Positions 16,420 to 19,672 of a stretch of DNA of 39,442 nucleotides are shown here, in pieces. Below the pieces are notes generated by a model that was not told the origin of the DNA, did no database searches, and saw nothing but the letters and a program-made list of their open reading frames with translations. The DNA comes from an uncultured Bacilli bacterium (GTDB lineage Bacteria > Bacillota_I > Bacilli_A > RF39 > UBA660): the NCBI GenBank assembly GCA_947588685.1, contig CANPYM010000009.1:1-39442 (forward strand), written 5' to 3'. The position numbers and the translations under genes are program-made. Numbering within the stretch: position 1 is the first letter of the stretch; each line of letters opens with the position of its first letter.

Positions 16420-16444
16420 AGTGTCATATTGGAGGTTGAGTCAT

Positions 16445-17437
16445 ATGTTTTCAAAAGACATCGGGATTGATTTAGGAACTGCCAATGTATTAATTTATAT
16501 TAAGGGTCAGGGAATAGTTTTGGATGAACCAAGTGTTGTCGCACTTGATTCAGATACGAAAAAAATTGTTGCAATCGGTAAAGAAGCAAGAGAAATGCTT
16601 GGAAGAACCCCAGATAAAGTTCAAGCCATTAGGCCTATGAAAGATGGGGTAATTGCTGATTTTGAAGTAACTGATATTATGCTTAATCATTTTATTAAGA
16701 AAGTTAAAGGAAGAAATTTATTTGGACGACCTAGAATTTTAATATGTTGTCCATCAAATATTACGCAAGTAGAAAAGAATGCTATTAGAATGGCTGCTGA
16801 TGCTACGGGAGCGAGACGAGTATTCTTAGAAGAAGAACCTAAAGTAGCCGCTATTGGAGCTGGTCTTGATATTGCTAAACCAAGTGGTAATATGGTTATT
16901 GATATCGGTGGTGGAACAACAGATATTGCTGTTTTATCATTAGGTGGTATTGTTAAAAGTGCTTCAATTAAAATAGCTGGTAATGTTTTTGATAATGACA
17001 TTATTAAATATATTAAAAATAAGTACAAGCTTTTAGTTGGTGAAAGAACAGCGGAAGAAATAAAGATGAAAATAGGAACTGTTTTTCCAGAAAATATTGA
17101 TGAAAAAATGGAAATAAAAGGTCGTGATCTCGTTACAGGCTTGCCTCATTCGGTAACCCTATGCTCTGCTGAAGTTGAAGAAGCCCTAAGAGAAAGCACT
17201 TATGAAATTATTAGTCAAGCTAAAACGGTTTTAGAAGAGACACCACCTGAGTTATCATCTGATATTATTGATAAAGGTATTGTCTTAACCGGTGGTGGGG
17301 CTTTGGTTAATGGAATGGATAAATTATTAGCGCATGAACTTAAAGTACCTGTTTTCTTAGCCGATAGTCCTCTTACTTGTGTTGTTGAAGGTACGGGCGT
17401 TATGCTTGAAAACCTTGAACTAATTGAAGATAAATAA
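16445..17437 (+). CDS. mbl: MreB-family rod-shape actin homologue, Mbl-like
   Basis: This actin-like protein forms membrane-associated filaments that direct lateral peptidoglycan synthesis. Hallmarks are DIGIDLGTANVLIY at the N-terminus (phosphate-1 loop), EEEPKVAAIGAG, VIDIGGGTTDIAVLSLGG (phosphate-2 loop) and VLTGGGALVNGMDKLL near the C-terminus. The length of 330 aa compares with 333 for B. subtilis Mbl. I chose the ATG at 16445 behind GGAGGTTGA. MreB, Mbl and MreBH are close paralogues; the spoIIID-mbl order is the main reason for choosing Mbl. It has its own promoter and a terminator with a GAAA loop. Confidence 0.93.
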   Translation: MFSKDIGIDLGTANVLIYIKGQGIVLDEPSVVALDSDTKKIVAIGKEAREMLGRTPDKVQAIRPMKDGVIADFEVTDIMLNHFIKKVKGRNLFGRPRILICCPSNITQVEKNAIRMAADATGARRVFLEEEPKVAAIGAGLDIAKPSGNMVIDIGGGTTDIAVLSLGGIVKSASIKIAGNVFDNDIIKYIKNKYKLLVGERTAEEIKMKIGTVFPENIDEKMEIKGRDLVTGLPHSVTLCSAEVEEALRESTYEIISQAKTVLEETPPELSSDIIDKGIVLTGGGALVNGMDKLLAHELKVPVFLADSPLTCVVEGTGVMLENLELIEDK

Positions 17438-17441
17438 ATAA

Positions 17442-17465
17442 AGGATGATGAAAGTCATCTTTTTT
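17442..17465 (+). terminator. intrinsic terminator of mbl
   Basis: GATGAT (17444-17449) pairs with GTCATC (17454-17459) around a GAAA tetraloop, followed by six T. Confidence 0.77.
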
Positions 17466-17560
17466 GATCCAACAAAAAAGAGCTATTACCTAGTTCTTTA
17501 TTACTTAACAAATACTTTATATTATCTTGCATATTACTATTATTAGATAATGTATCTGAT

Positions 17561-17642
17561 TTGACATTATTGTTAGATTGTGATATATTATCTTCAGTTG
17601 AACCCAACTGCGAAGTTATATTCGTACTTGGGTTCATTTTTT
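17561..17642 (+). ncRNA. candidate small structured RNA, unit A, with promoter and terminator-like hairpin
   Basis: TTGACA (17561-17566), a 17-nt spacer and TATATT (17584-17589) with TG at 17581-17582 make a good promoter. The expected start near 17596 falls just before a hairpin. There GAACCCAA (17600-17607) pairs with TTGGGTTC (17628-17635), and above one C-C mismatch TGCGAA (17609-17614) pairs with TTCGTA (17621-17626) around GTTATA. Six T follow at 17637-17642. A transcript would be about 45 nt, almost all hairpin. Whether it is expressed is unknown. Confidence 0.42.
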
Positions 17643-17678
17643 GTTAAAATTCTATTATTGTTAGATAACATATTATAG

Positions 17679-17778
17679 TTTCTATTTTTACTAGATTGTG
17701 ATACATTATTCGCAGACAACGAATTAATGGGGTTTGGCAATTGTAGCCACTGTCCATTGATTCGTTGTTTTTAGTTTT
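17679..17778 (+). ncRNA. candidate small structured RNA, unit B, with promoter and terminator-like hairpin
   Basis: The arrangement repeats unit A. TACATT (17702-17707) has TG at 17699-17700, and TTTCTA (17679-17684) lies in the -35 position at 17-nt spacing. A hairpin begins about 9 nt after the -10: 17716-17730 pairs with 17754-17768 over 15 bp with one U-G pair. An inner TGGC/GCCA helix (17735-17738, 17746-17749) sits inside. TTTTTAGTTTT follows. The hairpin sequence is unrelated to unit A; only its position and shape are kept. Confidence 0.4.
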
Positions 17779-17783
17779 AATCA

Positions 17784-17812
17784 CAAAAAGAAATGCTCAT
17801 TTGAACATTTCT
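17784..17812 (-). terminator. intrinsic terminator of the cotJ operon
   Basis: On the minus strand a 9-10 bp stem (17812-17803 with 17798-17789) encloses a loop of four and is followed by five T. It begins directly after the cotJC stop. Confidence 0.82.
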
Positions 17813-18385
17813 CTACATTTGATCTTCTTTATTATACTTTTGTTTATAATATTCTCTTAATTCTTTAAATCTTTGGTAATGTACAACTTCTCTTTGTCTT
17901 AAGAAAGAAAGAGGACCTAATAAATCAGGATCATTCGTCATTCGCATTAAGTTTTCATATGTAACTTTAGCTCTTTTTTCGGCAGCCATATCACTAACTA
18001 AATCAGCATCCCAGTCACCAGTTGTTTCAATATAAGTTGCGGTAAAAGGAACACCAGCCGCATCAACAGGGAATAAGGCATGGTCATGTTCAACATATTG
18101 AGCATTTAAACCAGCTGCTTCTAATTCTTCTATAGAAGCTCCCATCATAAGTTGTTTGACCATTGTTGCAATCATTTCAACGTGAGCCATTTCTTCGGTA
18201 CCAATATCGGTTAGTAAAGCTTTACCTCGTTCATCTGGCATATTAAAACGTTGATTTAAATAACGCATTGCTGCAGCCCATTCCCCATCAGGTCCACCAT
18301 ATTGCGCTAATAAGTTTTTAGCCATCGTTAATTCTTTGTGACGAACATTAACAGGATATTCTAACTTTTTAACATATTTCCACAT
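17813..18385 (-). CDS. cotJC: spore coat protein CotJC, manganese catalase-like
   Basis: CotJC is an inner spore coat protein of the ferritin-like Mn-catalase family. It is made in the mother cell and thought to help protect against peroxide. The start MWKYVKKLEYPVNVRHK and the core QYGGPDGEWAAAMRYLNQR are typical. Metal-ligand motifs are GTEEMAHVEMI (about residue 62) and EVVHYQRFKEL near the C-terminus. The length of 190 aa matches CotJC (189 in B. subtilis). I chose the ATG at 18385. Its ribosome site GGGAGGTG is formed by the last codons of the upstream gene (Trp-Glu-Val), with 2 nt between the genes. Confidence 0.95.
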   Translation of the reverse strand: MWKYVKKLEYPVNVRHKELTMAKNLLAQYGGPDGEWAAAMRYLNQRFNMPDERGKALLTDIGTEEMAHVEMIATMVKQLMMGASIEELEAAGLNAQYVEHDHALFPVDAAGVPFTATYIETTGDWDADLVSDMAAEKRAKVTYENLMRMTNDPDLLGPLSFLRQREVVHYQRFKELREYYKQKYNKEDQM

Positions 18386-18387
18386 TA

Positions 18388-18744
18388 TTACACCTCCCAA
18401 GGCCAAGGTGTTTCATCCCAAGACCATGGCCGTGCTTCCAATGCTTTACTAGCTAAAGTTAGAGGTCCATAACTTTCTTCATATTGCTTTTTAATTTTTT
18501 TCTTTTCTTCTCTTAATTGATTATAAAGTTGAATCATTTGAATATTATCAGGATCAATATCAAGGTATAGTCCTAAATCAATACAAGCAAAATCTAACAT
18601 ATCAATATATGTTAATAACTCAGCTTGTTCATTCATTGGTTTAATTTCATATACTTTGCCAAAGGAACTATATAAATCTTGGAACATATTACCACGAATA
18701 AAGCCTTGATATGGTTCAAATAAATTACCATTTTCATTATACAT
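18388..18744 (-). CDS. CotJA-CotJB fusion spore coat protein
   Basis: The protein joins two coat components that are separate in Bacillus. Residues 8-33 (LFEPYQGFIRGNMFQDLYSS) match the CotJA core, a short motif with a 'G..F.dLY' pattern. Residues 38-118 match CotJB: ELLTYIDMLDFACIDLGLYL, DPDNIQMIQLYNQL, YEESYGPLTLASK and the tryptophan-rich end (WSWDETPWPWEV). At 118 aa it is longer than CotJB (about 87) and shorter than both proteins together (about 170), so the CotJA part is reduced. It is directly upstream of cotJC, as expected. Start ATG at 18744 behind GAGGTG, with TATAAT at 18763-18758 on the minus strand. Sigma-E control is known for cotJ in Bacillus but no clear sigma-E promoter is visible. 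Confidence 0.83.
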   Translation of the reverse strand: MYNENGNLFEPYQGFIRGNMFQDLYSSFGKVYEIKPMNEQAELLTYIDMLDFACIDLGLYLDIDPDNIQMIQLYNQLREEKKKIKKQYEESYGPLTLASKALEARPWSWDETPWPWEV

Positions 18745-19596: not shown

Positions 19597-19672
19597 GCGG
19601 ACATGGTGAAGGGGTTAACACGGTGGATTGTGGTTCCATTATGCTAGGGTTCGAATCCCTATGTCCGCCCCA
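19597..19672 (+). tRNA. tRNA-His (anticodon GTG)
   Basis: A full cloverleaf can be drawn. Acceptor GCGGACA pairs with TGTCCGC (19662-19668). The anticodon stem GTGGA/TCCAT encloses TTGTGGT, with anticodon GTG at 19630-19632. The T arm is TAGGG-TTCGAAT-CCCTA. The CCA end is encoded (19670-19672). The base before position 1 is G (19596) and the discriminator is C (19669); this extra G(-1):C73 pair is the identity element of tRNA-His and confirms the call. It is a single-gene unit with its own promoter and terminator. Confidence 0.97.

Follow-up and report, generated by a model that had tools for sequence, protein, structure and literature searches.

Promoter–hairpin units between mbl and cotJC as putative orphan antidote RNAs in the remnant of a phage polyvalent-protein gene

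Why does a bacterial chromosome carry, between mbl and cotJC, two tandem units that each look like a promoter followed at once by a strong hairpin and a T-tract? We addressed this question in a 39,442-nucleotide (nt) stretch from an uncultured Bacilli bacterium (the window; contig CANPYM010000009.1 of assembly GCA_947588685.1), in which a first-pass annotation had marked the two units, A and B, at positions 17543–17780. We find that the units lie in the remnant of a phage polyvalent-protein gene, and we consider it somewhat probable, from sequence comparison, that they are orphan RNA genes which were ancestrally antidotes of injected phage ribonucleases (RNases). An antisense RNA gene for each module would be a simple and directly testable answer to the question of how a lysogen survives its own predicted injected RNase modules.

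Units A and B and the origin of their DNA

Units A and B repeat with a period of 118 nt, as the first-pass annotation had proposed, and a 57-nt repeat (17535–17591 and 17653–17709) is 74% identical between them; TAGATTGTGATA has exact matches in the window only at 17574 and 17692. Unit A reads TTGACA-N17-TG-A-TATATT, followed by a strong hairpin and six T. The annotated 17-nt spacing is present between its -35 box (TTGACA, 17561–17566, + strand), which is identical in an intact prophage copy (L002) and in a sister genome (G011), and its -10 box (TATATT, 17584–17589, + strand, TG extension at 17581–17582). This is the top promoter-like site within 16.4–18.8 kb, matching at 11 of 12 positions when scored against TATAAT and, TG-extended, at 12 of 12 in the comparison of pooled units described below, where unit B matches at 8 of 12. 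The predicted RNA A of ~47 nt (17596–17642, + strand), whose start is placed from the -10 box, would comprise a hairpin at 17599–17636 (9 + 6 pairs flanking a 1 × 1 mismatch; −20.6 kcal/mol, z = −5.6 against dinucleotide shuffles) and a U-tract at 17637–17642. The predicted RNA B of ~60 nt (17714–17773, + strand) would comprise a hairpin at 17714–17770 with apical GGCAAUUGUAGCC (−29.3 kcal/mol, z = −6.2 against dinucleotide shuffles) and a T-rich tail. T-tracts lie 3′ of both hairpins, both of which are as strong as had been claimed: none of 200 shuffles matched either in stability, and the + strand is favoured over the minus strand, which reaches −17.6 kcal/mol for A and −22.6 for B. The further claim that each unit has a promoter holds in full for A and fails in part for B, where the TG-extended -10 box (TACATT, 17702–17707, + strand) is accompanied by a decayed -35 box, TTTCTA (17679–17684, + strand; 3 of 6 matches), at the position homologous to 17561–17566. 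Unit A, having kept its full promoter and hairpin, should still give the ~47-nt RNA, and its transcription is highly probable; unit B has kept its hairpin, its promoter being weakened to an extended -10 only.

A decayed minus-strand gene rich in Ser and Asn had been named as the main alternative to an RNA, and as the origin of the DNA it is borne out, because a prophage copy exists in the same genome, and because polyvalent modules occupy this site in one relative and are absent from it in others. Positions 17476–17595 match, at 88% identity, part of contig C1 (the L002 prophage gene), which sits within a minus-strand open reading frame (ORF) of 2758 amino acids (aa). This large multidomain gene has phage structural genes as neighbours, for a major head protein and for tail proteins; the stretch common to both copies codes for a Ser/Asn-rich linker (DNISQSNNNVKS-TLSNNSNMQDNIKYSL). 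In G011, a very close genome with a 100% identical Mbl protein, the mbl–cotJC site holds a longer array of polyvalent modules that includes a PBECR3 domain, and in the more distant relatives G005 and G007 cotJC follows directly after mbl, with no modules. This absence led us to reject an intergenic small RNA specific to mbl–cotJC. Homologous modules contain LPD3 (below Pfam's cut-off), PBECR3 and MuF_C domains; in the window, the sense frames upstream of units A and B hold linkers and no toxin domain. Linker A (NPSTNITSQLGSTEDNISQSNNNVKSDTLSNNSNMQDNIKYLLSNKELGNSSF..., 17455–17637, minus strand) and, in a different frame, linker B (QRINGQWLQLPNPINSLSANNVSQSSKNRNYNMLSNNNRILTK, 17644–17770, minus strand) are each a remnant from which the toxin domain has been deleted. 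Compared with these relatives, the window segment is evidently a deletion remnant of a minus-strand phage polyvalent-protein gene, with two linker ends kept and the domains deleted.

G011 matches the window without a difference over unit B and its flanks (17637–17875), and promoter A is identical; every change in unit A falls in 17596–17636, where the hairpin has been swapped for another class. The first-pass annotation had listed an intact minus-strand gene in a relative as evidence that would count against an RNA; this holds in part, yet does not remove the RNA. The 2758-aa polyvalent protein of the prophage (G000:C1:48000–66000, L039) has no Pfam or PHROG match across its full length, one module being a weak LPD3. 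In G011 (contigs C22 and C20; L040, L041), an insertion with a transposase gene interrupts the module array at the mbl–cotJC site, and the contigs end within it.

The unit in intact toxin modules

The same unit, with unrelated stems, occurs antisense at the 3′ end of MuF_C, PBECR3 and an LPD3 module at ~30 loci from Bacilli, Clostridia and viral contigs, three stand-alone MuF_C genes included; the loci come mostly from metagenome-assembled genomes. On the coding strand of intact genes, the linker comes after an A-tract and a strong hairpin whose sequence is unrelated, and read on the opposite strand this is the same promoter–hairpin–T-tract unit as in the window. All intact units are convergent with the module ORF and overlap its 3′ end on the opposite strand. 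The genes hosting them are polyvalent proteins of the kind described with PBECR, MuF-C and LPD domains, in which PBECR and MuF-C are predicted RNases of the BECR fold that are thought to be injected with phage DNA and also exist in solo forms (PMC5512222); at our loci, MuF_C (PF18819) and PBECR3 (PF18812) form frames of 183–247 aa or portions of giant proteins.

To avoid selecting for the hairpin or promoter, we located MuF_C domains by hidden Markov model (HMM) alone. The loci found in this way (L135, L137–L141) carry a strong hairpin in six of six cases and an antisense TTGAC[A/T]-N17-T.TATT in five of six, and phage-type PBECR3 domains, likewise HMM-found, have the same hairpin and antisense promoter behind them. 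Hairpin z was below −2 in 18 of 19 HMM-found MuF_C or phage-type PBECR3 loci, and both hairpin and antisense-promoter scores exceeded those of 15 small stand-alone PBECR3 (DUF4258-like) control genes that came from the same search (Mann–Whitney p = 1e-4 and 6e-6). When all units were pooled, the spacer was 17 nt in 33 of 33, within the 16–18 nt between -35 and -10 boxes that we asked of a sigma-A promoter conserved in homologues, and at least 9 of 12 promoter positions matched in 32 of 33, the exception being window B; stems start 6–11 nt past the -10 box, and in 28 of 33 units five or more of the eight bases that follow the stem are T. Simple scans with a sigma-A pattern returned mostly ordinary promoters, and those with a hairpin 4–10 nt downstream were taken as members. 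A tblastn search with PBECR3 added a human gut phage (L346) that carries the unit; MuF_C, L115-type and LPD3 modules had no tblastn match among named phages, nor the L115-type module among plasmids, and viral contigs searched with single domains gave almost no loci. Two IMG/VR contigs (L194, L195) each hold four exact promoter-pattern matches 0.7–1.2 kb apart, with weak hairpins behind them.

Conservation of the unit extends beyond the encoded protein. When synonymous codons were resampled with the protein fixed, z_syn was −1.96 or lower in 18 of 20 in-frame units, and 13 units beat 200 of 200 resamplings. The valine codon of the NVK motif is GTC in all 11 units that have it (5 of them found without the promoter pattern or window similarity), against ~10% of Val codons across those ORFs. 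Where residues differ, other codons (AAA AGT CAA, KSQ; AAA GTC AAC, KVN) still spell GTCAA, the complement of TTGAC, and the unit is retained despite frame-closing stops in L138–L141, L320, L324 and L327. By these codon-level tests, conservation of the unit is at the nucleic-acid level and does not depend on what it encodes as protein, and we regard a conserved RNA unit as almost certain.

Given the unrelated stems, a joint MAFFT alignment of all units is meaningless, and alignments were made per class only. Compensatory stem changes, the lack of which would have spoken against an RNA, are present in 7 of 16 pairs in the class that includes window A (L124, L063, L139a) and in 10 of 25 pairs in the PBECR3 class, human gut phage included. 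MuF_C units fold as a single hairpin, with apical CUGCG..CGUAC (window A, L124, L063, L139a) or apical GGCAAUUG.AGCC (window B, L135, L313, L314), and the PBECR3 and LPD3 units take a Y shape with two inner hairpins; in these predicted folds, RNA shape tracks toxin family. Of the 33 units, 24 fold more stably as the antisense than as the sense transcript (Wilcoxon p = 3e-4), and across the set there are 71 G·U pairs in antisense versus 26 in sense. Such strand asymmetry, itself a folding prediction, would be expected only under selection on the antisense RNA. The tiny hairpin RNA of ~45–65 nt first suggested for the window gains support from this same antisense unit, which is conserved as nucleic acid in intact modules elsewhere.

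Proposed function and rival accounts

We propose a two-part module in which each unit supplies the RNA and a predicted RNase (MuF_C, PBECR) or an LPD3 domain would be the other part. A sigma-A promoter (TTGACA-N17-TG-n-TATATT) on the opposite strand, overlapping the 3′ end of the module, would fire 6–11 nt before the hairpin and constitutively yield a transcript of ~45–85 nt that is nearly only a terminator hairpin with its U-tract. This RNA would neutralise the RNase and so spare the prophage or host from its own module, a role as antidote that we judge slightly the better bet. Its mode would mainly be direct binding of the RNase, as in type III toxin–antitoxin systems; this we hold tentatively, at rather less than even confidence, and prefer to mRNA pairing on the grounds that RNA shape is matched to toxin family, the strands are asymmetric, the stems lock nearly the whole RNA and the units outlast the toxin. 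The wider notion of an RNA antidote class, in which a family-shaped hairpin RNA inhibits its RNase and hosts keep orphan units as heritable phage immunity, is speculative and rather unlikely.

Two kinds of locus bear on this proposal. Three stand-alone MuF_C genes of ~220–245 aa (L138, L140, L141) carry the antisense unit at their 3′ end and have sequence resembling a promoter and a ribosome-binding site upstream, clearest in L138 and L141; they are candidate autonomous toxin–antidote loci. Orphan units, or units beside a decayed toxin, comprise window A, window B, L041, L064, L168, L287, L109 and L309. At L139/L307 (G104:C16), two antisense hairpin units lie ~700 nt apart and the toxin module of the second has mostly been replaced by another gene; a near-identical second unit is kept in a sister genome (L168). 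At L287:627–958 (G338:C5), an orphan RNA unit with a phage-gene fragment of ~330 nt forms a giant 'spacer' between CRISPR repeats (GTTTTAATACCATTTAAAATGTCATAGAACTAAAAC), which is either a genuine unusual array insertion or an assembly chimera.

The antidote account has to be set against a cis-antisense silencer, which would base-pair at the 3′ end of the mRNA for the toxin module, blocking or destabilising that mRNA and leaving the protein untouched in the manner of type I systems. Every intact unit is indeed convergent with, and overlaps, the 3′ end of its module ORF, such an RNA is perfectly complementary to its target, and prophage SPbeta offers a precedent in the 3′-overlapping antisense antitoxin of yonT/SR6 (PMC5848175). 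Pairing alone, however, requires neither a family-matched shape nor G·U pairs biased to the antisense strand, the loops are short, with stems locking nearly the whole RNA, and orphan units would be without an mRNA target; we regard a silencer as unlikely, though it deserves consideration. A boundary mark, that is, a site of module-swap recombination or a protective or insulating transcription stop whose promoter match is incidental or minor, is a good deal less probable. It would explain why modules are exchanged beside conserved linkers and why hairpin A differs in G011 while the promoter and the T-tract side are unchanged, and the + strand hairpins do look like intrinsic terminators; it would not explain a -35 box kept at exact 17-nt spacing through different codons and in closed frames, a G·U asymmetry that indicates a single-stranded RNA of one strand, or apical loops conserved per toxin type.

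Least probable by far is a decayed Ser/Asn-rich gene and nothing more, with promoter and hairpins as by-products of A/T-rich coding repeats. Its coding origin is real and the linker repeats account for the 118-nt period, but the hairpins are destroyed by synonymous resampling with the protein fixed, compensatory changes are seen, and units are kept in closed frames and behind stand-alone genes. We also rejected a frameshift signal of the sense mRNA (the hairpin directly adjoins the A-tract, and closed frames also keep the unit), an attC-like recombination site (promoter conservation and G·U asymmetry) and the insulator or decoy of the first-pass annotation, for which support was absent.

Several observations weigh against the antidote RNA account. 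The comparison of test and control loci was split by protein type, but drawn up after inspection, and some pooled units were found through the promoter pattern or window similarity, so that the pooled promoter statistics are not independent. L316, a weak MuF_C, has no hairpin, and for L319 and L299 the hairpin did not stand out when synonymous codons were resampled. Among Proteobacterial phages with PBECR3, those of Rhodobacter, Rhizobium and Helicobacter lack a clear unit, so the unit is not universal. The -35 box is missing in unit B and likewise in its G011 homologue, and persistence of units after toxin loss could merely reflect recent loss.

Known systems and neighbouring features

Control of a nuclease-like toxin by an antisense RNA is known from RalR/RalA, and SymR is encoded opposite the 5′ end of symE; to our knowledge, neither SymE/SymR nor RalR/RalA occurs as a repeated phage structural-protein module or with family-specific RNA shapes. 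Type III systems (ToxIN, CptIN, TenpIN) pair a small structured RNA with an RNase, their antitoxins being toxin-processed tandem repeats that lie upstream of the toxin gene and on its strand. The direct-binding mode proposed here would share with them a structured RNA and an RNase, whereas our RNA is antisense at the 3′ end, with one hairpin per module and its own promoter, and an Rfam search of the window units and unit loci gave no family match. Polymorphic toxin systems contain arrays of orphan immunity genes. An antidote left behind after toxin loss would resemble those genes (PMC3482391), except that the retained part here would be RNA.

SymE/SymR (PMC1891008) is similar in that the toxin under antisense-RNA control is nuclease-like and not a membrane peptide. 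The type I system yonT/SR6 (PMC5848175) resembles the units as a prophage-linked convergent antisense RNA of Firmicutes that overlaps a toxin ORF at its 3′ end; its toxin has 58 aa and SR6 ~100 nt, whereas here a predicted RNase or an LPD domain takes the place of the toxin, either alone (~220–245 aa) or in proteins as large as 2758 aa, and the RNA consists of a terminator hairpin only. Full complementarity on the opposite strand, as in type I, is found in all intact units, with no toxin ORF left in the window; in place of the small, usually membrane-active peptide there are predicted RNase domains. The unit stands outside type III by layout and outside type I by the kind of toxin, and may work like either. 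The word 'antisense' does not occur in the text of PMC5512222, and our literature search, of incomplete coverage, returned no paper that describes an antisense RNA for PBECR or MuF genes. The units appear to belong to a previously undescribed family of tiny RNAs at phage RNase-like toxin modules, within the RNA-controlled toxin systems and with a possible new use in immunity. If so, they would add a widespread RNA family, hidden from coding-gene annotation because it lies antisense within ORFs, and in orphan units toxin immunity would take the form of RNA.

The remnant is flanked on the left by mbl (MreB/Mbl; 16421–17437, + strand; PF06723, E = 1e-145) and on the right by cotJC (Mn-catalase family; 17813–18406, minus strand; PF05067), whose terminator hairpin is at 17787–17814. 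The Rfam search of the window found a T-box leader and a tRNA gene, at 614–808 and 19597–19669. A separate, strongly conserved promoter (TTGACATAGA-N13-GTGATATATT or ATGATATATT) precedes an unannotated predicted RNA of ~65 nt (ATGCAAGGAAAAAATG...GGGGTCTATTTT..GGATAGAGCCCTATTTTT), without an Rfam match, in eight or more of the family's genomes; its sites are L253:192, L263:701, L233:701, L293:701, L154:594 and L155:1501 and, on the minus strand, L292, L156 and L172.
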